A DNA stretch of 64,000 nucleotides from Alkalihalobacillus sp. FSL W8-0930 (GCA_037965595.1 CP150183.1:744001-808000), one strand, 5' to 3'. Numbered from the stretch's first letter, positions 17,913-47,323 are shown. Notes: generated by a model from the sequence alone, not told the origin. A program made the numbers and translations.

Positions 17913-17924
17913 AGGGGGAGCTAT

Positions 17925-18833: not shown

Positions 18834-18843
18834 GCCTTTTTTA
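18824..18843 (+). terminator. Possible weak hairpin at the permease 3' end
   Basis: AAAAGG / CCTTTT stem with a five-base loop at the stop codon, followed by more T. Too small to be a strong terminator; it could lower read-through or mark a processing point before the binding-protein gene. Confidence 0.3.
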
Positions 18844-18921
18844 AGCTAAATTGGGGGTGAGTAGGGAAAGGGCCGGTATGACTAATTAGAGTTTCACCTA
18901 AAAACGAGAGGGGTTAGTAGG

Positions 18922-22004: not shown

Positions 22005-25000
22005 GTGCAACAAATAAGAAGATGTATTCAGTATGTCGGTGCGCTAGTTAATACCCGAACAGAGAAAACAGAAGACTGGAAAGCAACGCGTGCTTATTAT
22101 AAACAACCTGGAGAATATGAGTTTAAGGATCCAAACCCATTTACGATAAAAGTGGGGGATAAGCTAATTGAATCGGGGGAGACCCTATTTATAGAGAATG
22201 AACTCACTGCTCCGCCATCATTTGATGGAGAGTATGGCATTGAATTTAAAGTGGGGCAACATGGAATTCCGACCAATCATGAAGGGTTAGTTTACCTGAA
22301 CGGGGTTCCTTATCACGGCATTGATCGAAATCGTAGCTATATTCCTTTACCAAAACAAAAATCATATCATTTAAATATTGAGCTTTTTAATCCTACAGCT
22401 CAAGTAGTGGATCAGCTTAATTTTCAAAATGAACCTGCAGAATTCGATCCTGCTCCACTTTATTTGTTAGAAAGTAAATGGGTACAACCAAATAAAGCAC
22501 TTGAGGATTTATATTACACAATGAAAGTATATTATGAGTCTGCCATGTTACTTCCCGATGAGGGGTTAACAAAACAAACATTGCTAGGCGAGTTAATGAA
22601 ATTAAATGACTGGATTCAAAACACTTCAAAGGAAAACTTACTACATCAGCCAAAATTAATTGAAGAACAGAAAAAGAACTTTCTTCAGTCTATTAAAACA
22701 TTAGATTTAAATGACCGTGGGACGATGCATATGGTCGGTCAGTCCCATATTGACTTAGCCTGGTTATGGCCAATGAAGGAAGCGGTGCGAAAAACAAGTC
22801 GTACCTTTTCAACTATGAGCACGCTGCTTGATCAATATAGCAACTTTACATATGCCCAAAGTCAGCCACAAGCCTATGAATATGTTAAGACCTACTTTCC
22901 GGAGCTCTATAAACGTGTGAAAAAACATGTGGAAGATGGCCGGTGGGAAATTGTCGGTGGAATGTGGGTAGAGCCAGATTTAAATATTCCTTCCGGTGAA
23001 TCATTGGTGCGTCAGCTCATCTATGGGATGGAGTTTTTTAAGGATGAATTTAATGTAAGACCAACAATTGAATGGTTGCCAGATACATTTGGCTATTGCG
23101 CATCACTTCCTCAACTGCTAAAGAAATCAGGTATGAATTACTTTATGACAACAAAAATGAACTGGAATGATACGAACCCATTCCCATACGATTTGTTTCA
23201 TTGGGAGGGCATTGATGGCACTTCCATTCTTTCTTACCTAAATCATGGAATTAACGAATATACTCACCCAAAAGAAATAAAAGAACACTGGGATAGCTTT
23301 AAGCAGAAGAACGAACTCCCTGAACAAATGCTTTTATACGGGCACGGTGACGGTGGAGGTGGAGTAACAAAAGAAATGCTTGAGTACGTCAAGCGTTCTG
23401 ACAATCTACCTGGATTACCCTTACAAATAAATAGTTCGGCTCGCGAATTTTTTAATAGAGCTGAGGAAGTGAGTTCTAGTCTACCAAAATGGGTAGGAGA
23501 CCTATATCTAGAATTACATCGTGGAACGTATACGACTCATGCGAAGAATAAACGCTGGAACCGGAAAGCGGAAGTCTTGTATCGAGAGGCTGAAATATGG
23601 TCCATTTTAGCACCAGTAGCTATTTGTAAAGATGACGCAAGAACATTAAAAGAAGGCTGGAAGCTTCTATTATTCAATCAATTCCACGACATTATCCCGG
23701 GTACATCGATCCCGGAGGTATACGTGAAATCAGAGGAAGATTATAAAGAAGTCTTCTCTATTGGTCAAGAAGTAAAAGATGAAGCTATGTCCAATATTGC
23801 CAAGGAAATGAATACGGAGGGAGAAGGACAGCCGTATGTATTGTTCAATAGTTTATCTTGGGACCGAGACGAGGTCATTGAACTAAGAGGGGGAAGAGAG
23901 CTTTTAAATCTTTCAGTTTACGATGAAAACGATCAAGTTTTAAAAAGTGATCTGGTTTTTAAAAGCGAGGATGACATTCAATTATCATTTGTTGCTTTAA
24001 AGATTCCACAGATGGGCTACAAAACAGTGTGGTTACGCTCTACTCAAAACAAACTAACAAATGATGATCATTCTTCTGTCTTTAATGGAAGTTGGGAAAC
24101 ATCATATTACCGGATTGAATGGAACGCTAATGGTGAAATTTCTAGATTATATGATAAATCAGCGAGTAGAGAGGTTCTCCTAAAAGGAGAGCTAGCAAAC
24201 CAGTTCCAGCTGTTTCATGACCAACCAACGTATTGGGATGCTTGGGATATTGATCCTAATTTCAATAGTCAAGAAGCTAACAAGCCAAAGCTACGTTCCG
24301 TTGAGGTAGCACTTAAAGGGGAAACTAAGGATGTGCTACGTTTCCACTGGACCGTTTCTGGATCTAACATCTGGCAGGACGTCATCTTTTATCATCATTC
24401 ATCAAGAATTGATTTTCAAACAAAGGTTGAATGGAAAGAAACACATAAGCTTTTGAAGGTTGCTTTTCCTGTTGATATTCAAACGACAAAAGCGACATAT
24501 GAAATCCCGTTTGGAGCTATTGAACGAGCAACACATACAAATACTAGTTGGGAGCATGCACAATTTGAGGTGTGTGGTCACAGGTTTGCAGATTTGTCCG
24601 AAGGAGCCTATGGCGTAAGTCTCTTAAATGATTGTAAGTATGGCTACGATGTGAAAGGGAAAACAATACGTCTTTCACTTCTGAGAGCACCTAAATGGCC
24701 AGATCCAACAGCAGACCAAGGAGAACACCACTTTACGTATTCGCTTTGTCCTCATCAGGGAAATTGGATTGAAGCAAACGTGACAAGAAAGGGATATGAG
24801 CTCAATCATCCCATATCAATCTATCACACAGATTGTCATAAGGGTTCTTTACCATCACAAAAAAGCTTCATTCAAACGGATACTACTCATGGAATTATCG
24901 ATACAGTGAAACAATCTGAAAACGGAAAAGGGATCGCGTTAAGACTTTATGAGTCTAGTGGGAGTAGAGAATCGTTTACAATTCACTCTGATTTCTTAGA

Positions 25001-25106
25001 AGGAAAAGCATATGAAACGAATTTGTTGGAAGAGAAGCCACAAGAAATAATATCAGATCGCTATTCCTTAGCACCGTTTGAAGTGAAAACCGTTGTATTT
25101 GAATAA
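22005..25106 (+). CDS. Alpha-mannosidase, GH38
   Basis: A protein of 1033 residues with the full GH38 layout: an N-terminal beta region, the catalytic domain beginning GQSHIDLAWLWP (zinc ligands His248 and Asp250), and the nucleophile strand EWLPDTFGY with Asp360. FNQFHDIIPGTSIPEVY follows (further zinc ligand His), then the large C-terminal beta-sandwich domains. GH38 enzymes remove alpha-linked mannose with retention, often with broad linkage range in Bacillaceae. No signal peptide. Start GTG 22005 follows AGGAG at 21991-21995. It lies between a GH29 and a GH3 gene in the glycan operon. Confidence 0.92.
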   Translation: MQQIRRCIQYVGALVNTRTEKTEDWKATRAYYKQPGEYEFKDPNPFTIKVGDKLIESGETLFIENELTAPPSFDGEYGIEFKVGQHGIPTNHEGLVYLNGVPYHGIDRNRSYIPLPKQKSYHLNIELFNPTAQVVDQLNFQNEPAEFDPAPLYLLESKWVQPNKALEDLYYTMKVYYESAMLLPDEGLTKQTLLGELMKLNDWIQNTSKENLLHQPKLIEEQKKNFLQSIKTLDLNDRGTMHMVGQSHIDLAWLWPMKEAVRKTSRTFSTMSTLLDQYSNFTYAQSQPQAYEYVKTYFPELYKRVKKHVEDGRWEIVGGMWVEPDLNIPSGESLVRQLIYGMEFFKDEFNVRPTIEWLPDTFGYCASLPQLLKKSGMNYFMTTKMNWNDTNPFPYDLFHWEGIDGTSILSYLNHGINEYTHPKEIKEHWDSFKQKNELPEQMLLYGHGDGGGGVTKEMLEYVKRSDNLPGLPLQINSSAREFFNRAEEVSSSLPKWVGDLYLELHRGTYTTHAKNKRWNRKAEVLYREAEIWSILAPVAICKDDARTLKEGWKLLLFNQFHDIIPGTSIPEVYVKSEEDYKEVFSIGQEVKDEAMSNIAKEMNTEGEGQPYVLFNSLSWDRDEVIELRGGRELLNLSVYDENDQVLKSDLVFKSEDDIQLSFVALKIPQMGYKTVWLRSTQNKLTNDDHSSVFNGSWETSYYRIEWNANGEISRLYDKSASREVLLKGELANQFQLFHDQPTYWDAWDIDPNFNSQEANKPKLRSVEVALKGETKDVLRFHWTVSGSNIWQDVIFYHHSSRIDFQTKVEWKETHKLLKVAFPVDIQTTKATYEIPFGAIERATHTNTSWEHAQFEVCGHRFADLSEGAYGVSLLNDCKYGYDVKGKTIRLSLLRAPKWPDPTADQGEHHFTYSLCPHQGNWIEANVTRKGYELNHPISIYHTDCHKGSLPSQKSFIQTDTTHGIIDTVKQSENGKGIALRLYESSGSRESFTIHSDFLEGKAYETNLLEEKPQEIISDRYSLAPFEVKTVVFE

Positions 25107-25135: not shown

Positions 25136-27427
25136 ATGAAGTATAAAGATAGTCGTTTACCAATCAATGAACGCGTTGAAGACTTATTGGAGCATATGAC
25201 GTTGGAGGAAAAGGTAGGACAGCTGAATCAAAAGATGTATGGTTGGGATGCTTATAGGAAAACAGAAAACGGCATTGAATTAACAGAAGCATTTAAAGAG
25301 CATGTAGCCCTAGGGAAAGGGATGGGCGCATTGTACGGTCTGTTTCGATCAGATCCTTGGTCAGCTGTAACCTATGAGAATGGCATTCCTACAGAAGATA
25401 ATGTGAAGGTTTCTAATATGATCCAGCAGTACGTTAAAGAACATACAAGACTTGGTATACCAGTATTACTTTCAGAAGAGTGTCCACATGGACATCAGGC
25501 TTTAGATGGAACAGTGATTCCAACAAACATAGGAGTTGGATCTACATGGAATCCCGAACTGATGGAACAGGCTTACCAACATGTGGCTTTAGAGATTCAA
25601 TCAAGAGGAGCGCACATTGGATTAATTTCAACTTTAGATTTGCTAAGAGATCCACGATGGGGTCGATCTGAGGAATGCTATAGTGAAGACCCTTATTTAG
25701 CTTCTAAAATGACAACGGCAGCTGTTACAGGACTTCAAGGAAGAACTGATAAAGAGGAATACCCTAGAATCGCAGCCGTTTTAAAGCATTTCGCTGCTCA
25801 AGGAGCTGGTGAAGGTGGATTAAACGCAGGAACAGTTGCGATCGGTGAACGAGAACTACGCGAAATCCATTTGTCTGGTATGAAGGCGGGGGTAGAGGCA
25901 GGAGCTTTAGGGTGTATGGCTGCCTATAATGAGATTGATGGAGTTCCTTGTCATGCCAATGCTAGATTGCTTACAGAGATCCTTCGTGAGGAATGGGGTT
26001 TTAAAGGGATTGTCATGGCTGATGGAACAGCTGTAGACCGATTAAATCTGATGACTGGGAGCTATGAGAAATCGGGTGCGTTAGCTCTCCAGTCTGGGGT
26101 CGATTTAAGTCTTTGGGATGTTTCTTTTACTCAATTAGCAGGTGCTGTGAAGAGAGGTTTTGTCGAGGAACAATATGTTGATGAAGCGGTACGCAGAGTA
26201 TTAACCTTGAAGTTTTCTCTAGGGTTGATGGATCAAACATTCTCTGAGACGAACAACACAAAGGTAGTGGTAGGAAGTGATGAATTTAAAAAGGTGAACC
26301 TGCAAGTAGCTCGTGAATCGATTGTTCTGTTAAAGAACCAAGATCAGATTTTACCATTAAACCGAAAAACGAAAAAAATAGCTGTCGTTGGGCCAAATGC
26401 AGATCAAATCTATCACCAGCTAGGAGACTATACGGCCATTCAAGCTCCAAACAAAGGAAAAACAATCTTAGAAGGAATCTTTAATCAAAGTGAAGGTAAT
26501 GTTTCCTATGCAAAAGGCTGTAGTGTAAGGGGAACGTCTGAAGAAGGCTTTGAAGAAGCGATTCAACTTGCAAGGGAAGCTGATGTGGTGGTAGCAGTCA
26601 TTGGGGGCAGTAGTGCTAGAAATTTTGACATCAATTTCGATATCAACGGTGCAGCCATTGTATCGGGGAACCCCTCAGATATGGATTGTGGAGAGGGGGT
26701 TGATGTTGCAGATCTTACGCTAGGAGGGTTACAGGAGAGATTGATTTATGAACTTTCCCAAACTGGTACGCCAGTTATTGCCGTGTTAATACAAGGGAGA
26801 CCTCATGCGATTACTCCAATTCTAGAGCATTGCCAGGCGATCATTTGTGGGTGGTATCCAGGTCAAGAAGGTGGAACGGCAATCAGTGAAGTGATATTTG
26901 GAGATGTCAATCCAAGTGGGAAATTATCTGTTTCTATACCACGGTCAAGCGCTCAGCTGCCTGTTTACTATAATGCTAAGGAACAGAGTAGCCAGCTTAG
27001 GTATCTTGACATGGAGCGTGCGCCACTCTTTTCATTTGGGTATGGGCTCAGCTATACAACGTTTGACTATCAACTGGCTTACTTGTCCAAAGAAAAAATT
27101 ACTGTTAATGAACTTAACAACGGAAAACGTATTTTCATTTATATTGATATAATAAACACTGGATCGGTAGATGGAGCTGAAGTAGTTCAGCTATATATTA
27201 GAGATGTAGAAGCAACTGTGACTAGAAGAACAAAAGTCTTAAGAGGGTTTAAGAAACTCATGCTCTCACCAGGCGAAAGGAAAACGGTCTCTTTAGATAT
27301 AGGCAAAGAAGATTTGTCTTTATGGAATCACCAAATGAAAGAAGTAATAGAGCCTGGTGTTTTCCATGTAATGGTTGGTGGAAGCTTAGAGTCAACTACT
27401 CAACTTGAACTTACAGTCGTAGAGTGA
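25136..27427 (+). CDS. GH3 beta-glycosidase
   Basis: A protein of 763 residues with three GH3 parts: an N-terminal barrel (about 1-340), a sandwich domain (about 370-590) and a fibronectin-III-like C-terminal domain (about 655-760). The nucleophile strand is GFKGIVMADGTAV with Asp296; LKHFAAQGAGEGG is the Lys-His motif. The arrangement is that of beta-glucosidases/beta-xylosidases, not of NagZ-type hexosaminidases, which lack the last domain. Specificity in this mannose/fucose locus is open. No signal peptide. Last gene before the regulator. Confidence 0.88.
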   Translation: MKYKDSRLPINERVEDLLEHMTLEEKVGQLNQKMYGWDAYRKTENGIELTEAFKEHVALGKGMGALYGLFRSDPWSAVTYENGIPTEDNVKVSNMIQQYVKEHTRLGIPVLLSEECPHGHQALDGTVIPTNIGVGSTWNPELMEQAYQHVALEIQSRGAHIGLISTLDLLRDPRWGRSEECYSEDPYLASKMTTAAVTGLQGRTDKEEYPRIAAVLKHFAAQGAGEGGLNAGTVAIGERELREIHLSGMKAGVEAGALGCMAAYNEIDGVPCHANARLLTEILREEWGFKGIVMADGTAVDRLNLMTGSYEKSGALALQSGVDLSLWDVSFTQLAGAVKRGFVEEQYVDEAVRRVLTLKFSLGLMDQTFSETNNTKVVVGSDEFKKVNLQVARESIVLLKNQDQILPLNRKTKKIAVVGPNADQIYHQLGDYTAIQAPNKGKTILEGIFNQSEGNVSYAKGCSVRGTSEEGFEEAIQLAREADVVVAVIGGSSARNFDINFDINGAAIVSGNPSDMDCGEGVDVADLTLGGLQERLIYELSQTGTPVIAVLIQGRPHAITPILEHCQAIICGWYPGQEGGTAISEVIFGDVNPSGKLSVSIPRSSAQLPVYYNAKEQSSQLRYLDMERAPLFSFGYGLSYTTFDYQLAYLSKEKITVNELNNGKRIFIYIDIINTGSVDGAEVVQLYIRDVEATVTRRTKVLRGFKKLMLSPGERKTVSLDIGKEDLSLWNHQMKEVIEPGVFHVMVGGSLESTTQLELTVVE

Positions 27428-27537: not shown

Positions 27538-29811
27538 ATGCTTCGGAAATCGAAAAATAGATCCAAGCTACTTTATAAATATATCATCTCCTACCTTCTT
27601 ATTTTCCTAGTGCCATTTGTCGTGATGAGCGTTGTTATTTATATCAATGCTGTCTCGAGCTTACGAGAAGAAATAGAGAGCTCAAATATCTATAATTTAG
27701 AACAAGTGAGAAATTTAACGGATGACCGGTTGTCCGAACTTGAGACGATTACAACTCGTATTTCATTTGATCCGAGATTGACTCCTTATATGATGGATCA
27801 TGGATATTATGGTGGAGAAGCGATTAATGAATTAAAGAAGTACAAAGCAAACAGCGCGATTATTGAAGAATTATTTATTTATTTTTATAACGATGAAACG
27901 TTATATTCTACAAATGGTTTATATTCAATTGATGCATTAGTGCAGAATAGCAAACAATTGGAGAGGTTAGGTAAAGAAAATATACTTATGGATTTGAATA
28001 CAGACCTACCTCTAATTCGGACAATTGATGAACTGGAAATTAATTCAGAGACGCATGAGAATTTAATTGTGTATTATCTGCCCGTTAAATTGAATTCAGT
28101 TACTCCATATGGCACCGCTATGTACTTTATTGAAGAATCCACACTTATAAGCATGATTCAAAACATTCTTGGGGAAATGGAAGGCAATGTATATGTCTTC
28201 GATGAAGGGGGGCAAGTGATTGCTTCTACGATCCTTGATGATTCAATCAGTGCTTCGAATGTAATTTCTTTGTTAAACAATGCAAATGGGATCGACACGA
28301 TTGGGTTAAACGGTAAGGAGTATTCAACCGTTTCTGTTCAATCGGGTATGAGTGGCTGGACGTTTGTAACGGTTATGGATCCCAATCAATTATTTAGTAA
28401 GTTATCTAGTATGAAATACATTGTTGCGTTTTTTCTAGTCGGATTATTTATTGTTGGTTTGGTTTTAGCTGTGATCTTAGGGAAAAATCAATATAAGCCA
28501 ATTAGAGCTTTATCTGATATTGCAAAAAGAGGGGAAAATGCACCCTCCTCCACTGACGTAAATAACAATGAGAATGAATTAGAAACAATCGGAAGATCTT
28601 TTACAACATTATATGAACATCATGAACTATTAAATGAGACGGTTTTCTTACATCAACCTTTTGCGAAGGAGCAGTTTCTACTTAGATTACTAAGAGGATC
28701 CTTTAATCATCATAATGAATTGGCGGCAGTGATGGAATCGTTAGATATCTCCATTGATGAAGGACAACACTTTGTGGCTATATTACATTTTGAGGCAGGC
28801 TCGTTTTGCGAAGAAAGTATTGGTGAGAAAGATCACCTCATTAAAAAGCTTCAAGAGATCCACTTAGCTAACTCAAAAGTGTATGCAGTAGACCTCCTTT
28901 ACTCTGATTCCATTGCAATCTTAGTGAGTACTTCAGCCAGCACCATACCGGATATTCATTCTTTAATCGAACAACAAGTAACAATCATACAGACACTCGT
29001 AAAGCAAAATTTTGAAAAGCTCCCTACAATCTGTGTAGGGCAGTCCTATCGCTCGTTGGAAAAGGTAAATCGATCCTACATTGAAGCGCTTGCTACTGCT
29101 GAGTACAAATTTACGAAACCTCTTGGCAGTATTCTATTTTTTAAAGATATTGGAGAACAATCACATCCGCTTATTGGATATTTCAAAGAAGAGCAAATTA
29201 AATTCGTTCAGAGCTTAAAACAAGGCGATGTGGCGGTTGCCCATGAAATGCTGGGAGACATATTTAATGTTTTAGAACAAAAGAATCATTCAATACATGA
29301 AATCAAGTGCATTTGCTTCGATCTTGTTAATACTACCCTAAAAACAATCTCAGAAATTGGATGCCAAGATCAGTTCATTGATTTAAATCAACTCGTTGAA
29401 TTTCAATCAATAGAGGATCTTAAGAGCCAACTAATGAATATTGTTGAAATGATCTGTGAAGAAGTCGAACAAAAGAAGGATAGTCACAATTCCAAGCTTA
29501 GAGATGAGCTTCTTTTATTCATTAGAAAAAACTATACATCCTATGAGATCTCGTTAGAGTTTGTAGCCAATCACTTTTATCTATCTGTGTCTTACCTGAG
29601 CCGTTTTATTAAAGAACAAACGGGCGTTACTTTTACTCAATTCATACAAGATCTGAGAATTCAGCATGTGAAAAATCAGTTAACAAAAACAGATCAGCCA
29701 ATTAAAGAAATTGTGGATCAAGTTGGATACAAGGATGTAGCTAATTTCATCCGCAAATTTAAAAAAATTGAAGGAGTCACACCTGGTCAATATCGAAAAC
29801 TTCATAAATAA
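27538..29811 (+). CDS. Membrane-bound AraC-family regulator (YtdP/YesN-type)
   Basis: A protein of 757 residues. A transmembrane helix lies at about 13-33, then an extracytoplasmic sensor of about 260 residues (dCache-like size), and a second helix at about 290-315 (the segment FFLVGLFIVGLVLAVILG). A cytoplasmic linker region leads to two C-terminal helix-turn-helix units: LEFVANHFYLSVSYLSRFIK and IKEIVDQVGYKDVANFIRKF. This is the one-component membrane regulator class found beside LplABC-type transporters (YtdP in B. subtilis). It probably senses an extracellular glycan and activates the promoters at about 16850 and 29950. It sits between the two halves of the locus. Confidence 0.85.
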   Translation: MLRKSKNRSKLLYKYIISYLLIFLVPFVVMSVVIYINAVSSLREEIESSNIYNLEQVRNLTDDRLSELETITTRISFDPRLTPYMMDHGYYGGEAINELKKYKANSAIIEELFIYFYNDETLYSTNGLYSIDALVQNSKQLERLGKENILMDLNTDLPLIRTIDELEINSETHENLIVYYLPVKLNSVTPYGTAMYFIEESTLISMIQNILGEMEGNVYVFDEGGQVIASTILDDSISASNVISLLNNANGIDTIGLNGKEYSTVSVQSGMSGWTFVTVMDPNQLFSKLSSMKYIVAFFLVGLFIVGLVLAVILGKNQYKPIRALSDIAKRGENAPSSTDVNNNENELETIGRSFTTLYEHHELLNETVFLHQPFAKEQFLLRLLRGSFNHHNELAAVMESLDISIDEGQHFVAILHFEAGSFCEESIGEKDHLIKKLQEIHLANSKVYAVDLLYSDSIAILVSTSASTIPDIHSLIEQQVTIIQTLVKQNFEKLPTICVGQSYRSLEKVNRSYIEALATAEYKFTKPLGSILFFKDIGEQSHPLIGYFKEEQIKFVQSLKQGDVAVAHEMLGDIFNVLEQKNHSIHEIKCICFDLVNTTLKTISEIGCQDQFIDLNQLVEFQSIEDLKSQLMNIVEMICEEVEQKKDSHNSKLRDELLLFIRKNYTSYEISLEFVANHFYLSVSYLSRFIKEQTGVTFTQFIQDLRIQHVKNQLTKTDQPIKEIVDQVGYKDVANFIRKFKKIEGVTPGQYRKLHK

Positions 29812-30000: not shown

Positions 30001-30034
30001 ATTACTTTTTGCTAAAAGAGAGGCGGGTTTGACT

Positions 30035-31384
30035 ATGGAGAAACAAGTCCCTAAATCAATGACAAGCTACATCGAAGAAATGAAAAAGCACTTTACTTCA
30101 GATGAAAAAGCGCAAGAGCTATTTAGTCGCTGCTTTGTTAACACATATGATACAACCATCAGGAAACAAAAGGACGGGTCCACATTTGTTATTACAGGTG
30201 ATATTCCTGCTATGTGGTTAAGAGATTCAAGTGCTCAAGTTCGACCTTACCTTCTTTTAGCAGAACAAGATCCTGACATTGCCGATTTAATCGAAGGGTT
30301 AATCCTAAAGCAATGCATGTATATTAATCATGATCCTTATGCAAATGCGTTTAACGAAGATTACAATGGTAACCGGTATCATGAGGATCGTACAGAAATG
30401 ACCCCTTTAATATGGGAAAGAAAATATGAAGTTGATTCACTATGCTATCCCATTCAGTTAGCTTATTTATTTTGGAAATCAACTGGAAGAACGACGCATC
30501 TCAATAAAGAGTTCTTAGACGCTATTCAAAAGATCTTATCTGTATGGCAAACAGAACAACACCATCAAGAAAAATCCCCGTATTATTTTGAACGTGATAA
30601 CTGTCCTGCCCAAGACACACTGTCTCATCAAGGAAAAGGAACTCCGGTAGCTTACACAGGTATGACCTGGAGTGGGTTTCGACCAAGTGATGACGCGTGT
30701 ACATATGGCTATTTAATCCCTTCTAATATGTTTGCAGTTGTCGTTTTAAAACATTTGCATGAACTAGCAAAAGAGGTCTTAGAAGATGAACGGTTAGCGG
30801 CTGAGGCTATTGAACTAGCAAATGAAATGGATCAAGGAATTCAAACGCATGGGACAGTTCATCATCCTACGTACGGAACCATTTATGCATATGAAGTAGA
30901 TGGTCTTGGTCATGTAAACCTAATGGATGATGCCAATGTTCCAAGTTTACTGTCTATTCCTTACCTAGGTTATTGTGCGTTTGATGATCCCATTTATCTA
31001 AATACAAGAGCATTTATTTTAAGTAAGGAAAATCCTTATTACTTTGAAGGAACTGCTGCAAAAGGAATAGGGAGCCCGCATACCCCTGATCAATATATTT
31101 GGCACATTTCACTCGCTATTCAAGGTATGACTACGACTGATCAAAGGGAGAAAGACTACATTCTCTCGTTATTTAAAACAACGGATGCGAATGAAGGCTT
31201 AATGCACGAAGGTTTTGATGTGAATAACCCTGAAAGGTTTACCCGGCCTTGGTTTGCATGGGCAAACTCCATGTATAGTGAATTTCTAATGTCCTATTGT
31301 GGATATGCAGTAAAAGGAAGTCCGCTCAAGCGATCACTTAAATCAGAAATGAATGGGGGATCTTTAAATGAAAGCAGGAATTAG
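30035..31384 (+). CDS. Metal-independent alpha-mannosidase, GH125
   Basis: A protein of 449 residues. The signature PAMWLRDSSAQVRPYL at about 58-73 is diagnostic of GH125 (formerly DUF1237), exo-acting alpha-1,6-mannosidases that need no metal. The later GMTWSGFRPSDDACTYGYL and FEGTAAKGIGSPHTP blocks also fit. No signal peptide. ATG 30035 is preferred over TTG 30029 because AGGCGG at 30021-30026 gives usable spacing only to the ATG. It overlaps the next gene by 17 bases. It complements the GH38 enzyme on mannose-rich glycans. Confidence 0.9.
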   Translation: MEKQVPKSMTSYIEEMKKHFTSDEKAQELFSRCFVNTYDTTIRKQKDGSTFVITGDIPAMWLRDSSAQVRPYLLLAEQDPDIADLIEGLILKQCMYINHDPYANAFNEDYNGNRYHEDRTEMTPLIWERKYEVDSLCYPIQLAYLFWKSTGRTTHLNKEFLDAIQKILSVWQTEQHHQEKSPYYFERDNCPAQDTLSHQGKGTPVAYTGMTWSGFRPSDDACTYGYLIPSNMFAVVVLKHLHELAKEVLEDERLAAEAIELANEMDQGIQTHGTVHHPTYGTIYAYEVDGLGHVNLMDDANVPSLLSIPYLGYCAFDDPIYLNTRAFILSKENPYYFEGTAAKGIGSPHTPDQYIWHISLAIQGMTTTDQREKDYILSLFKTTDANEGLMHEGFDVNNPERFTRPWFAWANSMYSEFLMSYCGYAVKGSPLKRSLKSEMNGGSLNESRN

Positions 31385-32240
31385 CACGTACAGCTTATTA
31401 GAAGCAATTGAGTCTGGTGAGATGGATATACTTGATGTCTTGCAATGGACGGCTGATCACGGTGGCGAACACGTTGAAATCGTCCCGTACGGTTTTACAC
31501 TTGTAGATAACGAATCTCTTGCAGCTAAAGTACGGGAGAAAGCGGAAGAGTTAGGTCTTTTGCTATCAAGCTACTCAATGCCTGCTGATTTTGTTAAGGA
31601 TACAGAGGAAGAGTTTGAGCAAGAAATAGATCGAGTAAAAAAGCACGTTGATCTCTTGCACTCTATGAATATTAGGCATTTAAGACATGATGTCACAGCC
31701 TTTACGTTGCCACCTGAAAAAAGGACGATTGAGTATTTTGAGAGAAACCTTCCACGTATGGTAGAAGGAAGTCAGCGAATTGCAGATTATGCAGCAACAT
31801 TCTCTATTACAACAACAATCGAGAATCATGGGATGGCTGTTCAACATAGTGATAGAGTGCAGCGGGTCTTACAAGCAGTTAACAAACCAAACTTTAAAAC
31901 CACGCTCGACATTGGAAACTTTATGTGTGTCGATGAAGATCCTCTAGTTGGGGTGACTAAAAATCTACCATACGCTTCGCTTGTGCATGTGAAGGATTTT
32001 TATATACGACCTAGTTATGAGGACCCTGGTTCTGGAAAGTGGTTTAAGACGGCAAATGATAACAATCTAAGAGGAGCTATATTTGGTCAGGGGGACCTCC
32101 CTGTTAGAGAGCTGTTAAAACGAATTAAACAATCGGGTTATGACGGCTTTTTAACGTTAGAATTTGAAGGTATGGAAGAATGTCGACTAGGAACGCGCAT
32201 TGGTCTTGATAACTTAAAAAGATTATGGGAAGAGCTGTAA
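31368..32240 (+). CDS. TIM-barrel sugar isomerase/epimerase-like protein (first copy)
   Basis: A protein of 290 residues of the xylose-isomerase-like TIM barrel (AP endonuclease 2 superfamily). Presumed metal ligands stand at strand ends: Glu in TTIENHG, Asp in TLDIGNF, His in VHVKDFY and Glu in LTLEFEG. GGGGGA at 31355-31360 supports ATG 31368, which lies inside the GH125 gene. Family members epimerise or isomerise sugars, and some catalyse beta-elimination or hydration of 3-keto-glycosides. A paralogue lies at 34190; both keep the full metal set. The two differ enough to suggest separate steps. Confidence 0.8.
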   Translation: MKAGISTYSLLEAIESGEMDILDVLQWTADHGGEHVEIVPYGFTLVDNESLAAKVREKAEELGLLLSSYSMPADFVKDTEEEFEQEIDRVKKHVDLLHSMNIRHLRHDVTAFTLPPEKRTIEYFERNLPRMVEGSQRIADYAATFSITTTIENHGMAVQHSDRVQRVLQAVNKPNFKTTLDIGNFMCVDEDPLVGVTKNLPYASLVHVKDFYIRPSYEDPGSGKWFKTANDNNLRGAIFGQGDLPVRELLKRIKQSGYDGFLTLEFEGMEECRLGTRIGLDNLKRLWEEL

Positions 32241-32274
32241 CTCTACTATCACAGAAGAAGAGGTGAAGTGCCTA

Positions 32275-33174
32275 ATGCAAATCGCAATTATGACTGAAGC
32301 TAAGAACCTCGATTCTTTACGAGACTATTGGTCTCATTATAAAGAGATTCAAGTTGCTGAGACGTTCTCTTTTCAAGGGGAGGAGAGTAGTACTCAGGCT
32401 ATGCAGGAATTCATTTCAATTCTCCGTTCAAAACGTGTTCAATTTGTTGATCTCTGTATTTTAGATAAGGGAAAAGAAAAGGTGTTACATGCACTTATTG
32501 ATGAAGAAATCAGTGTGTTAACATGTTATCCAATTGCTGAAACAGAAGCAGCAACCAAATCCCTTCTAAAAAAAGCAACCAGGAATGGTGTGAAAGTGAT
32601 AAATCGTGATACTGTTCATTTTCTGCCTGAACGTATGCAAGCTCAAACAGAGGTGCAAAAAGGAGCTCTAGGAAACCCAGGTGTACAACGAATTTCAGTT
32701 CGCAAAAAATCGTCTAATGCCTTCGAGAGATTGGCAATTGGACAATTTGAATGGATTTCAGAAACATTTGGCGCTGTAAAACGAGTAATGGCTAAGCAAG
32801 TTCGGAAAGACCTTTCTGATAACGGATCGATTGAATACTATTCCATTTCGTTAAGGTTGGTAAATGATTCTTTTGTTCATTTAGATCTGTGCTTAATAGA
32901 TTCCGAAGAGATGCAATCATTTGAATTAACCGGAAACAAAGGCATGCTGAGTTTTCATAGTGAGAACGCCTCACCCATTAGAGTGTTCCATACGGGAGAA
33001 TTAAATGATTCTCGTGAAAATGTAAACCGTGAGCTATCATACCTTGCTTTAGCCATAAGTAAGGAACAAAACATGTCTTATCAGAGTGAATCCATATTGC
33101 ATGCGCTCAGGATTCTCGAGGCGACAAAAGAATCCGTACGGTTAAGTCAACCAATTGAAGTGAGGGGTGAATAA
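32275..33174 (+). CDS. Degenerate Gfo/Idh/MocA-like protein
   Basis: A protein of 299 residues that aligns by eye with Gfo/Idh/MocA dehydrogenases from the second half of the Rossmann domain on: LTCYPIAETEAATKSLLKKA stands where EKPxATTxxEA belongs, and KGALGNPGVQRISVR where GxiGxpxxvr belongs. The EKP lysine is replaced (Cys84-Tyr85-Pro86), and the N-terminus MQIAIMTEAKNL has no glycine-rich nucleotide motif. It is probably not an active dehydrogenase; it could be a partner or regulatory subunit of a neighbouring active member. ATG 32275 is chosen from GAGGTG at 32260-32265; GTG 32263 overlaps that site. It lies between an isomerase-like gene and a complete Gfo/Idh gene. Confidence 0.65.
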   Translation: MQIAIMTEAKNLDSLRDYWSHYKEIQVAETFSFQGEESSTQAMQEFISILRSKRVQFVDLCILDKGKEKVLHALIDEEISVLTCYPIAETEAATKSLLKKATRNGVKVINRDTVHFLPERMQAQTEVQKGALGNPGVQRISVRKKSSNAFERLAIGQFEWISETFGAVKRVMAKQVRKDLSDNGSIEYYSISLRLVNDSFVHLDLCLIDSEEMQSFELTGNKGMLSFHSENASPIRVFHTGELNDSRENVNRELSYLALAISKEQNMSYQSESILHALRILEATKESVRLSQPIEVRGE

Positions 33175-33175
33175 G

Positions 33176-34165
33176 TTGAAGGTCGGTATAATCAGCTTCG
33201 CACATATGCATGCAAATAGTTATGCAGCAGCTTTAAATAACCATAAAGAAGCAGAATTAGCTGGGATTTGGGATGCGAATAGTGAACGAGGCCAAGCGAA
33301 AGCGAATGAATTTCAATCCACATTCTACGCCTCTCTAGATGAATTGCTTTCATCAAATATTGATGCTGTTATTATCTGTTCGGAAAACGTAAATCACCGT
33401 GAACATGTGATCAAAGCAGCAGAGTACCGAAAGCATATTCTGTGTGAAAAGCCAATTGCAACGGAACTGTCTGATGCTATTGATATGATTCAAACGTGCG
33501 AACAGCATCAAGTAACTTTACAAGTTGCTTATCCAGTACGTTTCTCCGAGCCTATCCAAGAAATGAACGCGATGATAGGTAGCGGGGAAATTGGAGATGT
33601 TCTCGCAGTGAATGCGACCAACCATGGTCAAATGCCAGGTGGATGGTTTGTTGAAAAAGATCAATCGGGCGGAGGTGCAGCAACGGACCATATTGTTCAT
33701 TTAATGGATCTTCTTAGATGGACCCTGAAGGACGAGGTGGCCTCTGTATACGCTGAATTTGACCGTCGTTTTTATGAGATAGAGGTTGAAGATTGTGGTT
33801 TGGTACAGCTGGAGATGGAGTCGGGAGTTGTCGTTACCATAGACCCAAGCTGGTCAAGACCTAAGTCATTTCCAACATGGGGAGATGTTACGTTAGAAAT
33901 TATAGGAACAAAAGGGGTCCTCTCAGTTGATGCCTTAAAACAGCACTCTGTTTTATATAATGATGAAATCAATCGAATAGAGCGAAAGTCTTGGGCAGCT
34001 GATATGGATGAATTACTAGTGGATGATTTTATTGACTGTGTGAAAAATGATAGGGCTCCCTTTATCAGTGGGGAGGATGGGTTAAGAACGTTAGAGGTTG
34101 TGAAAGCAGCATATCAATCTGACCAAGAAAAACAATCAATAAAGCTAAATCGGATTACGTATTAA
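33176..34165 (+). CDS. Gfo/Idh/MocA-family oxidoreductase
   Basis: A protein of 329 residues. The N-terminal strand reads VGIISFAHMHANSYA, a known variant in which FAHMHA replaces the usual glycine-rich loop. ILCEKPIATE supplies the EKP motif (Lys92), and GGGAATDHIVHLMDLLRW carries the Asp/His pair of the active site. These enzymes use NAD(P) to oxidise or reduce sugar hydroxyls. TTG 33176 is chosen because GAGGGG lies 8 bases upstream; the GTG at 33167 overlaps that site. It starts one base after the stop of the degenerate homologue. Confidence 0.8.
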   Translation: MKVGIISFAHMHANSYAAALNNHKEAELAGIWDANSERGQAKANEFQSTFYASLDELLSSNIDAVIICSENVNHREHVIKAAEYRKHILCEKPIATELSDAIDMIQTCEQHQVTLQVAYPVRFSEPIQEMNAMIGSGEIGDVLAVNATNHGQMPGGWFVEKDQSGGGAATDHIVHLMDLLRWTLKDEVASVYAEFDRRFYEIEVEDCGLVQLEMESGVVVTIDPSWSRPKSFPTWGDVTLEIIGTKGVLSVDALKQHSVLYNDEINRIERKSWAADMDELLVDDFIDCVKNDRAPFISGEDGLRTLEVVKAAYQSDQEKQSIKLNRITY

Positions 34166-34189
34166 CTTAATATGATAGGAGGTTAAAAC

Positions 34190-35086
34190 ATGAAGCTAGG
34201 CATGAGTTCCTATAGTTTAGTAGGTGCTATCCAGTCTAATGAACTGTCAATTGTTGACGTAATCGATTGGACAGCTGAACAAGGGGGGGAGCATGTAGAA
34301 ATTGTTCCGATTGGTTTTAATCTAACGGAGTCTGAACATTTAATTGATGAGATCGTTGCGAAGGCAAAAGCATGCAAAATTGATCTTTCAAATTATGCGA
34401 TAGGAGCGGATTTCTTAAAAGAATCAAGGCATGCGTTTGAGGAAGAAATAAAAAGAGTGAAGGAACAGGTAGACATTGCTAATCGACTTGGTGTGAAGAA
34501 GATGAGGCATGACGTATCCTTTAAACCACCCGTACAGGCTACGATTGAGCAATTTGAAAAAGATTTGCCGACCTTAATTGAAGGCTGCCAGATTATTGCT
34601 GACTATGCCTCTGACTATGGAATAACAACAAGTATTGAAAATCATGGATTTTATATTCAATCAAGCGATCGGGTTAAACGATTCATTTCTGAAGTAAACC
34701 GAGAAAATTTCAAATTAACACTGGATACGGGGAACTTCCTTTGTGTTGATGAGAGTCCTTATGCAGCCGTATCAAATACCGTTCATTTGGCCTCGATGAT
34801 CCATGTAAAAGACTTTTATGTACGTAAGGCATCAGAGTTTAATCCGGGAGAAGGATGGTTCCAGACAACGAATCAAAACTACCTAAGAGGTGCGATTACA
34901 GGACACGGGGATATTTGCTTGAGAGATGTCTTAAACGTAATAAAGCGCTCAGGTTACGATGGTTTCATCTCAATAGAGTTTGAAGGACTAGAGGAATGTA
35001 AGAAGGCTGCGGCGATATCTCTTAATAACGTGAAGAATATGTGGTATGAGTTACCGAATGAAAAAGAAGGGGTGTACATAGGATGA
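34190..35086 (+). CDS. TIM-barrel sugar isomerase/epimerase-like protein (second copy)
   Basis: A protein of 298 residues and a clear paralogue of the 31368 product (GMSSYSLVGAIQSNE versus GISTYSLLEAIESGE at the start; GGEHVEIVP in both). All four presumed metal ligands are present: TSIENHG, TLDTGNF, IHVKDFY and SIEFEG. Strong AGGAGG ribosome site before ATG 34190. Its stop overlaps the start of the next Gfo/Idh gene (ATGA), so the two products are made together. Whether it is an epimerase, an isomerase, or a lyase/hydratase for keto-sugars cannot be read off. Confidence 0.8.
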   Translation: MKLGMSSYSLVGAIQSNELSIVDVIDWTAEQGGEHVEIVPIGFNLTESEHLIDEIVAKAKACKIDLSNYAIGADFLKESRHAFEEEIKRVKEQVDIANRLGVKKMRHDVSFKPPVQATIEQFEKDLPTLIEGCQIIADYASDYGITTSIENHGFYIQSSDRVKRFISEVNRENFKLTLDTGNFLCVDESPYAAVSNTVHLASMIHVKDFYVRKASEFNPGEGWFQTTNQNYLRGAITGHGDICLRDVLNVIKRSGYDGFISIEFEGLEECKKAAAISLNNVKNMWYELPNEKEGVYIG

Positions 35087-36144
35087 GTGTCATTAAGATT
35101 GGGATTATCGGAGCAGGCTCGATTTCTGATATGCACTTTGATTCATATGCCACAAATTCTCAAGTAGAAATTTATGCCGTATGTGACCTCAATCAGTTAA
35201 GAGCAGAGGAAAAGGCAATCAAATATGGGGCACAACATGTTATGACTGATTATCACGAGCTGTTAGCTTTAGATGAGCTGGATGCGGTCAGTATTTGTAC
35301 ATGGAACAACTCTCATGCAGAAATTGCTATTAGTGCATTAAAAGCCGATAAACATGTGTTGGTTGAAAAGCCATTATGCAAAACCGTAGAAGAAGCAGAA
35401 GCCATACAAAAAGCTGTGAATGAAAGTAATAGGAAGACACTTCAAGTTGGTTTTGTGCGACGTTTTGCATCAAATACTCAGGTATTAAAAACGTTTATTG
35501 ATGCTGGTGATTTAGGAGATATTTATTATGCAAAGGCTTCATGCTTACGAGTCTTAGGCAATCCTGGTGGTTGGTTTGCCGACCAGGAACGATCTGGAGG
35601 CGGTCCGTTAATTGATTTAGGTGTTCACGTCATTGACCTTTGTTGGTATTTAATGGGTAAACCAAAGGTTAAATCAGTGACTGGCAACACATACAACAAG
35701 TTGGGGAACAGGGCCAACATCCAAAACAAATCTTATTACAAAGCTGCAGACTTTGATTCGAATAAGAATGATGTAGAGGACTTAGCTAATACACTGATTC
35801 GATTTGAAAATGGAGCTTCGTTAATGGTTGACGTTAGTTTTACACTTCATGCTAAAGAAGAGAAGATGGAGATTCATTTATTTGGTGAGCGAGGCGGAGC
35901 TCAGATTGAGCCAGCTCTCGAAATTGCTACTGAGAAGCACAATACAATGTTAAATTTGGTTCCTCAAATGGATAGTCGGACATTTGATTTTGCAAAAGGC
36001 TTTCAAGATGAGATTAATCACTTTGTAGAGTGTGTACAAGGGAAGCAAGAAACAATTAGCCCCGTTGAGGATGGTGTTGAGATCATGAAGATTTTGACCG
36101 CTATCTATGACTCTAGTAAAACAGGTGCAGAGATTCAATTTTAA
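35083..36144 (+). CDS. Gfo/Idh/MocA-family oxidoreductase (canonical)
   Basis: A protein of 353 residues with a textbook nucleotide loop GIIGAGSIS (about 7-15), the EKP motif VLVEKPLCKT (Lys96), and the GGGPLIDLGVHVIDLCWYL active-site helix. An Asp at the end of the second strand (VCDLNQ) points to NAD(H). It is larger than the 33176 product and not a recent duplicate of it. Coupled by ATGA overlap to the second isomerase-like gene. Probably oxidises or reduces a sugar intermediate from the imported glycan. Confidence 0.85.
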   Translation: MSVIKIGIIGAGSISDMHFDSYATNSQVEIYAVCDLNQLRAEEKAIKYGAQHVMTDYHELLALDELDAVSICTWNNSHAEIAISALKADKHVLVEKPLCKTVEEAEAIQKAVNESNRKTLQVGFVRRFASNTQVLKTFIDAGDLGDIYYAKASCLRVLGNPGGWFADQERSGGGPLIDLGVHVIDLCWYLMGKPKVKSVTGNTYNKLGNRANIQNKSYYKAADFDSNKNDVEDLANTLIRFENGASLMVDVSFTLHAKEEKMEIHLFGERGGAQIEPALEIATEKHNTMLNLVPQMDSRTFDFAKGFQDEINHFVECVQGKQETISPVEDGVEIMKILTAIYDSSKTGAEIQF

Positions 36145-36185: not shown

Positions 36186-37439
36186 ATGAGTAATCTTGAT
36201 CTAGCAATTCCTTCGCCACAACAGGTAGCTTGGCAAAACTTAGAGCTTGGACTATTTGTTCACTTTGGCTTAAATACATTCTTAAATCAGGAGTGGGGAG
36301 ACGGAACCGATTCCCCACAGGTCTTCAATCCCACCTCCTTAGATGCTAAGCAATGGGTCAAAGTAGCCAAGGATTTGGGTTTTAAGTACTTTATGCTAAC
36401 GGCAAAGCATCATGATGGGTTTTGTTTATGGCAAACAGAAACAACCAATTACTCAGTGAAAAGCAGCCCTTGGAAGAATGGAGAAGGGGACGTAGTGAGA
36501 GAATGCGCAAATGCGTGTGAGCAACTTGGAATGCCCTTTGGACTCTATATCTCTCCTTGGGATCGACATGAGCCTTGCTATAAAGATAAAGATGCCTATG
36601 ATTCGTTTTATTGTAAACAGCTAACGGAGTTACTCACAAAGTATGGACCTATTATTGAAGTATGGTTTGATGGTGCCGGTTCTGAAGGGCGAGAATATAA
36701 CTGGGAACGAATTATTGGAACTGTGAAGAAATATCAGTCTGATGCAATGATTTTTAATATGGGCCAGCCAACAATCAGATGGGCTGGAAATGAAGATGGC
36801 ATTGCTCCAGACCCTTGCTGGAACTCAAGACAAACTTCTAAAATAAGTTTGTTCTCAAAAGAAGAATCAACCTGGTTGCCTGGAACTCCTGAATGGCTAC
36901 CAGCGGAGTGTGATGTGCCAATTAGAGGAGATCATTGGTTCTGGCATGAGCATGATGAGGAGAGATTGAGATCAGTTGGTAATTTGTTAGAGATTTATGA
37001 GAAGTCTGTTGGGCGAGGAGCAAATCTATTATTAAACGTGGCCCCAGATCATCATGGACTTATCCCTGAAGTAGATATTGAACGTCTTAATGAATGGAAA
37101 ACTAAGATCAACCAAGCTTATACGAAGCCAGTAGCTTCATCCTCAGGCAGTGGGTACGAGCTAACACTTGAGCTTGGTAAAGACAGTAAAATAGGTGCAG
37201 TAATTCTTAAGGAAGAGATCCGAATAGGTGAAAGAATCCGGTCATATAAAGTCGAAGCCTTGCTTCATGAGACCTGGCATACTGTAACTAAAGGGTCAGC
37301 CATTGGACATAAGCGAATACACAGATTTCAAGCAATTGAGACCAATAGGCTTCGTTTAACGATTGACGAAACCGTAGGAAAACCAGAAATAATTGAATTC
37401 TCTGCTTTTATTTCTGTGAATCTACAAAACAATCAATGA
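36186..37439 (+). CDS. Alpha-L-fucosidase, GH29 (second copy, divergent)
   Basis: A protein of 417 residues. Motifs: VHFGLNTF, LTAKHHDGFCLWQT, GLYISPWDRH and the nucleophile strand EVWFDGAG with Asp162. LLLNVAPDHHG closes the barrel. A C-terminal segment of about 90 residues looks like a small beta domain. It belongs to the GH29 subgroup that tends to be linkage-specific (alpha-1,3/1,4), in contrast to the first copy; subgroup assignment is inference. No signal peptide. AAGGAGG precedes ATG 36186. Last gene of the glycan locus; no strong terminator follows it. Confidence 0.85.
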   Translation: MSNLDLAIPSPQQVAWQNLELGLFVHFGLNTFLNQEWGDGTDSPQVFNPTSLDAKQWVKVAKDLGFKYFMLTAKHHDGFCLWQTETTNYSVKSSPWKNGEGDVVRECANACEQLGMPFGLYISPWDRHEPCYKDKDAYDSFYCKQLTELLTKYGPIIEVWFDGAGSEGREYNWERIIGTVKKYQSDAMIFNMGQPTIRWAGNEDGIAPDPCWNSRQTSKISLFSKEESTWLPGTPEWLPAECDVPIRGDHWFWHEHDEERLRSVGNLLEIYEKSVGRGANLLLNVAPDHHGLIPEVDIERLNEWKTKINQAYTKPVASSSGSGYELTLELGKDSKIGAVILKEEIRIGERIRSYKVEALLHETWHTVTKGSAIGHKRIHRFQAIETNRLRLTIDETVGKPEIIEFSAFISVNLQNNQ

Positions 37440-37570: not shown

Positions 37571-37586
37571 TGAGGAGAATGTGATT

Positions 37587-38603
37587 ATGGATAAAAAAAT
37601 GCTAGAAACAAAGGTAGACGCAAAGCAAAAAGAGATTGAATTTTCAGGTACTGTGTTAGTAAAGACAAAAACGGATACGTGGACAAAGAGCTATGGTTGG
37701 TTAAATCGTGCGGAGAAGATACCAAACACAGACCAAACACGCTATGGTATAGCATCTGGATCAAAACCGATCACAGCTGCAGCTATTAGCTTGTTGATGG
37801 ATCAGGGGAAACTGACGCCAGACGATCGATTCATTGATCTTGTAGACCACTCGTTTCCACACTTTGATCAAACAATCACCATTCATCAATTACTTACTCA
37901 TACATCCGGAGTGCCGGATTATTTTGATGAAGATGTAATGGATGATTTCGAAGAGCTTTGGGTGAAACACCCGATGTATCTTATTCGAGAGTTAAGCGAC
38001 TTTCTTCCATTATTTCAGGATGAGAAGATGAGGTCAGAGCCTGGCACACAATTTCACTACAATAATGCAGGGTATATTCTGCTTGGACTTGTAGTAGAGA
38101 AAGTAAGTGGGGTTCCGTTTGATCAATTTGTTCAAAAACAGATCTTTGATCCTCTAGGTATGAACGATTCGGGTTACTTTGAACTTGACTCATTACCAGA
38201 ACGGACGGCTTTAGGATATATTGAAAAGCCAGACGGTGGCTATCGTACCAATGTCTATAGTTTGCCGGCTAAAAGCGCTTCTGATGGTGGCGTGTTTGTC
38301 ACGGCAGGGGATATGCAAATCTTTTGGGATGCAATTGTAGGTTATAAGCTTTTAAGCGAAGAAGCAACCAAGCGCTTTCTGACTCCTCACGTGGAGGAAG
38401 ACGATGGATTCTTTTATGGATATGGTCACTATATGGAGGTAGATCAATCCATCATTCGTCGCCACATCATGATGGGTTATGACCCAGGTGTTAACTTCAG
38501 GGCAGCGTTCTTCCCTCAATCTGGTGTGAACATTATTGTTTGTTCAAACCTGTCAGACGGAGCTTATGAGATCATTACAGAAGTACAGGAAATGCTTGAA
38601 TGA
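37587..38603 (+). CDS. Cytoplasmic serine hydrolase, beta-lactamase fold
   Basis: A protein of 338 residues with no signal peptide. The SGSK motif (Ser57, Lys60) supplies the nucleophile and general base, and HYNNAGY the Tyr-x-Asn element. A third motif near RRHIMMG is less clear. This is the class C beta-lactamase/EstB-like group, usually esterases or peptidases. ATG 37587 has GAGGAG at 37572-37577; GTG 37581 would be too close. The unusual leader-like sequence upstream suggests regulation after transcription starts. Followed by a strong terminator. Confidence 0.8.
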   Translation: MDKKMLETKVDAKQKEIEFSGTVLVKTKTDTWTKSYGWLNRAEKIPNTDQTRYGIASGSKPITAAAISLLMDQGKLTPDDRFIDLVDHSFPHFDQTITIHQLLTHTSGVPDYFDEDVMDDFEELWVKHPMYLIRELSDFLPLFQDEKMRSEPGTQFHYNNAGYILLGLVVEKVSGVPFDQFVQKQIFDPLGMNDSGYFELDSLPERTALGYIEKPDGGYRTNVYSLPAKSASDGGVFVTAGDMQIFWDAIVGYKLLSEEATKRFLTPHVEEDDGFFYGYGHYMEVDQSIIRRHIMMGYDPGVNFRAAFFPQSGVNIIVCSNLSDGAYEIITEVQEMLE

Positions 38604-45226: not shown

Positions 45227-45949
45227 TTACTCACCACGAGCAGCAGCATCGGCAATGACTGTGACGCGCGGGTGTCGTTTTAAAATGGATGCAGGAACAG
45301 CTTCTGTTTCTTCTCCGTGTAAAAGGTGGTGCAAGGCATCCTTCTTGCTCTGACCAGAGATTAACAACAGAATTTCTTTGCTTCTCATGATACTTGCGAT
45401 ACCCATCGTAATGGCGTGGGTCGGAACCTCTGCAAGAATGTTGAAGAATCGTGCGTTTGCCTTACGAGTTGTTTCCTCAAGCTTTACAATATGAGTGGTG
45501 GACTGAAAATCAGTTCCCGGCTCGTTAAAGCCAATATGTCCATTACTTCCAATCCCAAGAATTTGTATATCAATTCCCCCATGAGAATAGAGAGCATCTT
45601 CGTAAGCTGCACATGCGACTTCTGGTTCCTTGATATTACTTTCTGGTATGAAAACCCGCTCGTCCCGTATATCAATGTGTTCGAAAAGCTGCTCTCTCAT
45701 ATAGGTGTGGTAGCTTTTGGGGTGGTCATATGAGAGACCAATGTATTCGTCTAAATTAAATGACGTGACTTCTTGATATGACGTTTGGTTTTTTTTGTGA
45801 TCTTCTACTAATTGCTCATATAGACCAACTGGTGTTCCTCCTGTTGCAAAGCCAATATTTATAGCAGGGTTCTGTTTTAAATGCCTGAGTACATACGCTG
45901 CAGCTTTTACACTCATATCCTCGTAATCCCGTGCTTTAATGATTTGCAC
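45227..45949 (-). CDS. nagB: Glucosamine-6-phosphate deaminase NagB
   Basis: A protein of 240 residues. NagB motifs: GFATGGTPVGLYEQL, FNLDEYIGL with the catalytic Asp, and GIGSNGHIGFNEPG with the catalytic His. It converts glucosamine-6-phosphate to fructose-6-phosphate and ammonia. GTG 45949 is chosen: on the minus strand GGAGG stands 8 bases before it, while the longer frame from 45979 runs through that site. It overlaps the 3' end of nagA by 14 bases. Confidence 0.93.
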   Translation of the reverse strand: MQIIKARDYEDMSVKAAAYVLRHLKQNPAINIGFATGGTPVGLYEQLVEDHKKNQTSYQEVTSFNLDEYIGLSYDHPKSYHTYMREQLFEHIDIRDERVFIPESNIKEPEVACAAYEDALYSHGGIDIQILGIGSNGHIGFNEPGTDFQSTTHIVKLEETTRKANARFFNILAEVPTHAITMGIASIMRSKEILLLISGQSKKDALHHLLHGEETEAVPASILKRHPRVTVIADAAARGE

Positions 45950-47153: not shown

Positions 47154-47323
47154 ACATGTCTCCTTATTTTCCATAATCTAAAAATAAAAAGGATCAATGA
47201 GAGGAAACCATTTTATTTGTTTCAAGCTTTTAGTATTGTTAAGAGATATCCCTTTTAAACATAACATAGTTATAATTTATGAGTGAGGTAGAATGTAAAA
47301 AAAGAATTGAAGGAGATACTGCG
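47154..47323. promoter_or_regulatory. Divergent nagA / PTS gene control region
   Basis: A 170-base divergent spacer. It contains a TATAAT-like element at 47271-47276 for the plus strand and a near-palindrome ATAACATAGTTAT at 47261-47273 that could be an operator. I do not see the B. subtilis NagR dre sequence. The promoters are not certain. Confidence 0.35.

Follow-up and report, generated by a model that had tools for sequence, protein, structure and literature searches.

Several described systems combine Gfo/Idh dehydrogenases with triosephosphate isomerase (TIM) barrel enzymes to act on glycosides: the C-glycoside deglycosidase (CGD) DgpA-DgpB-DgpC of PUE strain and Dorea (PMC8563793), the levoglucosan operon lgdA-B1-B2-C of Bacillus smithii (PMC7676230), the AtOGE/AtHYD/Gfo/GlycDH operon of Agrobacterium (PMC10628242) and the YcjQRS guloside/glucoside pathway of E. 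coli. Here, a five-gene cassette on a 64,000-nucleotide stretch of Alkalihalobacillus sp. FSL W8-0930 (GCA_037965595.1 CP150183.1:744001-808000; the window) is compared with these systems. We lean towards the reading that it forms a cytoplasmic C3-oxidation/beta-elimination module, which would work with glycoside hydrolases (GHs) of families GH38, GH125, GH29 and GH3 on imported N-glycan-type oligosaccharides; its substrate, its product and the bond cut are inferred from sequence and gene context. The cassette consists of the following genes:

31368-32240, + strand: BAR1, xylose-isomerase-like TIM barrel (PF01261), a predicted metal-dependent 3-keto-glycoside eliminase (Pfam, active-site residues, structural model)
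32263-33174, + strand: DEG, degenerate Gfo/Idh protein, a predicted non-catalytic partner of GFO2 (weak NCBIfam matches, AlphaFold2 model, alignment)
33167-34165, + strand: GFO2, intact Gfo/Idh/MocA dehydrogenase (Pfam PF01408/PF22725/PF02894)
34190-35086, + strand: BAR2, second TIM barrel and BAR1 paralogue (53% identical) with the same active-site pattern (PF01261)
35083-36144, + strand: GFO3, Gfo/Idh protein, a candidate glycoside 3-dehydrogenase (PF01408/PF22725/PF02894, tree)

Neighbouring open reading frames (ORFs) of the cassette overlap or stand 22-24 bp apart. An initial annotation had read them as barrel, degenerate Gfo/Idh, Gfo/Idh, barrel and Gfo/Idh between a GH125 and a GH29 gene, and both the ORFs and Pfam bear this order out.

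The active site of the barrels is the main evidence for the proposed chemistry. BAR1 carries the pattern E152-N-H154, D181, H207-x-K209 and E265-x-E267, which is invariant across 21 homologues. Public genomes contain no fewer than 555 loci that encode relatives of the barrels; the 80 best were examined, and as these were picked by similarity to BAR1, fractions among them do not describe a random sample. The pattern E-x-H, D, H-x-K, E-x-E is kept at all 80; it is that of DgpC/CGD-alpha, unlike those of YcjR and tagatose epimerase. AgCGD2 binds Mn through E147, D179, H269, K271 and E305 and uses H149 as the base, with E307 as a supporting residue (PMC8563793); the barrels hold all five metal residues, the catalytic His and the supporting Glu at equal motif spacing. 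Similarly, DgpC encoded beside the CGD beta subunit (CGDB) reads E-x-H, D, H-x-K-F-Y and E-Y-E-G, compared with E-N-H, D, H-V-K-D-F-Y and E-F-E-G in the barrels. Strand 5 takes other forms elsewhere, namely E-P-L-N in YcjR, H-P-H in LgdB1 and E-N-Y in Art22. A third barrel type, BAR3, was observed beside BAR1 (L098:11970-12860 and L105:10878-11756); its strand-5 His is lost (E-x-G), and it may be the hydratase or isomerase of the module.

The affinity of GFO3 points to the same type of reaction. Among solved Gfo/Idh proteins, its best matches are DgpA (3e-56) and DgpA1 (3e-49), all others being at 1e-26 or weaker. In the maximum-likelihood tree, which included DgpA sequences from CGDB-bearing genomes and YcjS from E. 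coli, GFO3 is one clade that is sister to, not within, DgpA plus YcjS (98/91), inside a 100/99 clade; LgdA and LgdC stand apart, and GFO2 and DEG each form a separate clade. DgpA is a glycoside 3-dehydrogenase according to the abstracts that describe it, and YcjS is one by RefSeq annotation. GFO3 is a candidate glycoside 3-dehydrogenase. As an observation apart, a levoglucosan-dehydrogenase relative (440 bits against a 650-bit cut-off) lies elsewhere in the source genome (G000:C1:1810767-1811906); profiles detect no barrel in its neighbourhood.

GFO3 and the barrel also travel together. In 399 Bacilli genomes, a GFO3 orthologue (at least 54% identity) is found in 50 of 54 barrel-bearing genomes versus 9 of 345 others (Fisher 2e-49); with relatedness controlled at genus level only, the counts are 12 of 16 versus 8 of 130 genera (1.5e-9). 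GFO3 is within 500 bp of the barrel for 31 of 72 barrel matches. In a separate search of 25 barrel genomes, with orthologues at 59% identity or more and paralogues reaching at most 43%, all 25 contained a GFO3 orthologue somewhere. A reading of the cassette as rare is not supported: the barrel-GFO3 pair is widespread, and in Bacilli its members nearly always occur together.

On this basis, the following course may be proposed. GFO3, with bound NAD, would oxidise the C3 hydroxyl of a glycoside. Next, one or both barrels (BAR1, BAR2) would use a divalent metal, and the His of E-x-H as base, to remove the C2 proton and expel the group at C1, giving a 2-substituted 3-keto-glycal. Hydration of this 3-keto-glycal might be performed by the other barrel or occur spontaneously. 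Finally, re-reduction by GFO3, or by GFO2 with DEG as its stabilising but dead subunit, would yield the free sugar.

The overall fold of the barrels must be weighed separately. The BAR1 model (predicted local distance difference test, pLDDT, 92) matches DgpB-C at template modelling (TM) scores of 0.70/0.75 and the hydratase AtHYD at 0.73, which are superfamily-level matches. Several observations weigh against the proposed module. The closest solved fold to BAR1 is Art22 (PDB 8z1i, 9koj; TM 0.85-0.91), which is named an isomerase, although it is only about 25% identical and its strand-5 His is replaced. The overall identity of BAR1 to DgpC is about 14-15%. No CGDB beta subunit (PF19906) was found in the source genome, the same model matching in 3 of 398 genomes of the phylum; most Paenibacillus loci have no dehydrogenase gene adjoining the barrel; and no assayed enzyme was found for this barrel/GFO3 clade. 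Fold does not discriminate between the reactions, whereas active-site residues do. By these residues the barrels do not fall among ordinary hexulose epimerases or inosose isomerases; with an 'isomerase', Art22, as the nearest solved structure, elimination is their predicted reaction.

This bears directly on a cascade like that of YcjQRS, in which one Gfo/Idh enzyme oxidises C3 of a glycoside, the barrel inverts C2 or C4 of the resulting 3-keto sugar and another Gfo/Idh enzyme reduces it, so that one sugar is converted into another with the bond left uncut. Two different dehydrogenases (GFO2 and GFO3) do flank barrels, the GFO3 clade is next to that of YcjS, and Art22 carries the name isomerase. 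However, strand 5 of YcjR is of the epimerase type and comes without H-x-K, whereas E-N-H plus H-x-K in our barrels is as in eliminases and hydratases, and YcjQ is an MDR dehydrogenase, not a Gfo/Idh protein. Readings of the YcjQRS type, and of plain epimerases, were rejected on these active-site grounds, and we regard the cascade as improbable. Plain catabolism of free mannose, fucose or inositol by an IolE-like dehydratase or ketose isomerase and IolG-like dehydrogenases appears equally improbable. IolE and IolG are the best NCBIfam names, and a fucose-related role is conceivable, as 35 of the 80 best loci have a GH29 gene no more than 700 bp from the barrel. However, the scores are far under the cut-offs (39-46 versus 290 bits for IolE and 161-164 versus 355 for IolG), so that IolE/IolG inositol catabolism was not retained; moreover, GFO3 groups with glycoside 3-dehydrogenases, and barrel strand 5 is unlike that of epimerases.

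The comparison with the eliminating systems is closer, but none of them is reproduced. With DgpABC/CGD, the cassette shares an identical metal and catalytic pattern, and its candidate glycoside 3-dehydrogenase belongs to the neighbouring clade. It differs in several ways: CGDB is absent, strands 6 and 7 are not separated by a long insertion, two barrels replace the single alpha/beta pair, and the surroundings are an N-glycan glycosidase locus; identity with the DgpABC system was rejected because CGDB is absent. The Lgd operon likewise has two barrels, two active Gfo/Idh enzymes and an ATP-binding cassette (ABC) transporter, and uses a route of oxidation, elimination, hydration and reduction. 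Nevertheless, LgdA and LgdC belong to a separate clade, LgdB1 has H-P-H, LgdB2 has E-M-H with H-x-H-x-K, and glycosidases are missing; the dehydrogenase clade and barrel motif thus reject the Lgd four-enzyme pathway. The Agrobacterium operon includes a TIM-barrel eliminase with a metal site and a catalytic His two residues past the strand-5 ligand, a TIM-barrel hydratase and a Gfo reductase; in contrast to our cassette, a flavoenzyme does the first oxidation, and the E-x-H of the barrels corresponds to H132-x-H134 in AtOGE. The initial annotation, which had likened the cassette to YcjS/YcjR or Dgp-type systems, is partly supported overall. The oxidation/beta-elimination type of chemistry, suggested by the position of GFO3 and the DgpC-type residues, holds at the level of sequence; a match to either system as such does not, given the MDR protein YcjQ, the YcjR motif and the lack of CGDB.

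The remaining pair of the cassette is DEG and GFO2. DEG has no Pfam match and weak NCBIfam matches to Gfo/Idh, but its AlphaFold2 model (pLDDT 80) shows a complete Gfo/Idh fold. Alignment with intact orthologues (Bacillus sp. SA1-12 and others) reveals that the GxGxxG loop, the EKP lysine and the catalytic Asp/His are lost, which agrees with the earlier description of the gene as degenerate; Brevibacillus copies have lost the same NAD-binding and catalytic residues. Between the source genome (G000) and G001, one of the four other species of the genus compared (G001-G004), dN/dS of DEG is 0.29, against 0.02-0.12 for neighbouring genes, which is relaxed yet purifying. A DEG-clade gene is directly upstream of GFO2 in nearly all loci examined, and every DEG gene that was found stands immediately before GFO2. 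Both genes carry frameshifts in G004, GFO2 survives only as remnants in Alkalihalobacillus, and in Virgibacillus both genes are gone while BAR1-BAR2-GFO3 is kept. Although DEG is frameshifted along with GFO2 in G004, its dN/dS and retained ORF reject a simple pseudogene in the window. Since the fold is kept, catalysis is lost, selection is purifying and the gene immediately precedes GFO2 and shares its losses and disruptions, DEG is likely a pseudoenzyme, a non-catalytic subunit of GFO2, and the pair probably plays an accessory role.

The wider locus supplies the context, in the following order along the window:

16902-20520, + strand: two sugar ABC permeases and a solute-binding protein for oligosaccharide uptake (translations, NCBIfam)
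20603-21973, + strand: GH29 alpha-L-fucosidase (a) (Pfam)
22005-25106, + strand: GH38 alpha-mannosidase (Pfam)
25136-27427, + strand: GH3 glycosidase (Pfam)
27538-29811, + strand: membrane-anchored AraC-type regulator of the locus (NCBIfam)
30029-31384, + strand: GH125 alpha-1,6-mannosidase, whose 3' end overlaps the BAR1 start (Pfam)
36186-37439, + strand: GH29 alpha-L-fucosidase (b), following the cassette (Pfam)

GH38, GH125, GH29 and an oligosaccharide transporter thus stand together as an N-glycan-utilisation gene set by Pfam and NCBIfam, the families of N-glycan breakdown being assigned after PMC10154615. On inspection of the translations by eye, GH38, GH3, GH125 and the downstream GH29 have no signal peptide, so glycan breakdown is probably intracellular after uptake. 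None of the scanned genes of the locus encodes an endoglycosidase or PNGase, the rest of the genome not having been searched for either. GlcNAc (N-acetylglucosamine) catabolism genes were noted 9-12 kb downstream of the cassette at 45227-48781 (NagB and NagA, by eye from translations, and a phosphotransferase system EIICB). Other observations are a 1162-aa ORF with no Pfam family upstream of the locus (10981-14469) and two beta-lactamase-fold serine hydrolases (7015-8898 and 37581-38603), the latter directly after the GH29 gene and kept in two sister species (L014, L142).

The cassette order and the flanking GH genes are conserved in four of the five species of the genus (G000, G001, G003 and G004), so the order is not due to chance; both the barrels and GH125 are absent from G002, the fifth. 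Beyond the genus the five-gene order splits up, while its parts recur. Arrangements at the 80 best loci include GH38-GH125-GH20-BAR1-GH29-GFO3 in Metabacillus, GH125-BAR1-BAR2-GFO3 in Virgibacillus, GFO3-Dpp ABC-ROK-DEG-GFO2-BAR1 in Brevibacillus (seven loci), GH125-GH20-BAR1-(intact DEG)-GFO2-GH2 beta-mannosidase in Bacillus sp. SA1-12, and GH3-GH38-GH125-GH18-BAR1 as well as CutC-AsnII-BAR1-GH29 in Paenibacillus (AsnII, asparaginase II). Among these 80, GH29 is present at 42, GH38 at 13, GH125 at 11 and any of the three at 49, and some also hold GH18, GH20 or GH2 beta-mannosidase. The supposed link to mannose/fucose glycan breakdown is supported, and the idea that the mannosidase association is unique to the window was discarded. 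N-glycan breakdown is a context that fits GH38 plus GH125 plus GH29, with GH18, GH20 and beta-mannosidase in relatives. At two loci (L043:11027-15507 and L046:11874-18440), BAR-GFO3 is followed by a further module made up of an additional barrel and several more Gfo/Idh genes, of which one clusters with DgpA; L046 also has a sulfatase. At L083 and L092, a CBM9 protein, an 874-aa transglutaminase-core protein and GH18 lie downstream of BAR1 (shown by Pfam for L083); eukaryotic PNGases are transglutaminase-like.

An ASPARAGINASE link was also found: PF06089 asparaginase II occurs at 16 of the 80 best loci, in several architectures. BAR1-GFO3-(BAR3)-ROK-AsnII is found in eight Bacillus-like loci, mostly with a Dpp-type ABC transporter, and in Paenibacillus and Lederbergia AsnII adjoins BAR1 and GH29, or is found with GH38/GH125. 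In the AsnII tree, 19 of 19 barrel-linked copies fall into one (clade B) of two deep clades. With a low profile score as proxy for membership, clade B is present in 42 of 54 barrel-bearing versus 7 of 345 other Bacilli genomes (2e-38), whereas genomes with only the other kind have no barrel association (p = 0.30). Physical linkage is occasional, AsnII lying within 5 kb of the barrel for only 3 of 72 barrel matches in the unbiased set. The barrel-linked copies are likely real asparaginases, as by our reading they keep the active-site motifs of the Rhizobium etli class-3 enzyme. In three Paenibacillus loci (L068, L074, L094), a CutC-family gene adjoins AsnII and BAR1 and may belong to the barrel pathway; CutC is not known to have a settled enzymatic role. 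Profile searches of the source genome found no PF06089, no PF01112 glycosylasparaginase and no GH20, so the asparaginase link is evidence on the family and not directly on the window.

These results allow two substrates to be set against each other within the oxidation/elimination reading. The barrel and GFO3 might cut the N-glycosidic GlcNAc-asparagine bond that remains when glycoprotein breakdown is otherwise complete, a non-hydrolytic alternative to glycosylasparaginase or PNGase that would free Asn for deamination by AsnII, with DEG as a conserved pseudo-dehydrogenase subunit of GFO2. What makes this bond attractive is that hydrolases for the remaining bonds are present in related loci, that asparaginase tracks the module, and that the alf-2 cluster of Lacticaseibacillus casei brings together GH29, ROK and a glycosylasparaginase to deal with the same substrate, Fuc-GlcNAc-Asn (PMC6960285). 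As at several barrel loci, GH29, ROK and an Asn-handling enzyme are grouped there for taking up and degrading the N-glycan core; the cluster differs in its hydrolytic glycosylasparaginase, of which the source genome has no homologue, and in having no dehydrogenase or barrel. No 3-keto route to GlcNAc-Asn and no GH125/GH38 cassette with Gfo/Idh was found in the open-licence literature, which is weak evidence of absence. We regard this specific proposal as rather unlikely. Somewhat less doubtful, though still only a tentative possibility, is the same chemistry on an ordinary O-glycosidic bond (e.g. Man-beta-1,4-GlcNAc or GlcNAc-beta-1,4-GlcNAc), the asparaginase link then reflecting only Asn released by another enzyme. 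The source genome, without GH20 and asparaginase II, still has two barrels, and this chemistry is how AtOGE and LgdB1 cleave O-glycosides (PMC10628242, PMC7676230); however, related barrel loci hold GH20 and GH2 beta-mannosidase, so these bonds are already served there.

A review of bacterial N-glycan breakdown names only GH18, GH85 and PNGase as releasing N-glycans and leaves 3-keto chemistry unmentioned (PMC10154615). If N-glycans are what the module acts on, it would bring a redox-elimination step, widespread in Bacilli, into a pathway so far regarded as entirely hydrolytic. It would also give a testable function to the hundreds of genes whose annotation reads no more than 'sugar phosphate isomerase' or 'Gfo/Idh oxidoreductase'. 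Through the asparaginase link the question of the substrate can be put directly to the test, and DEG-GFO2 offers a clean case for how a dehydrogenase turns into a pseudoenzyme partner.

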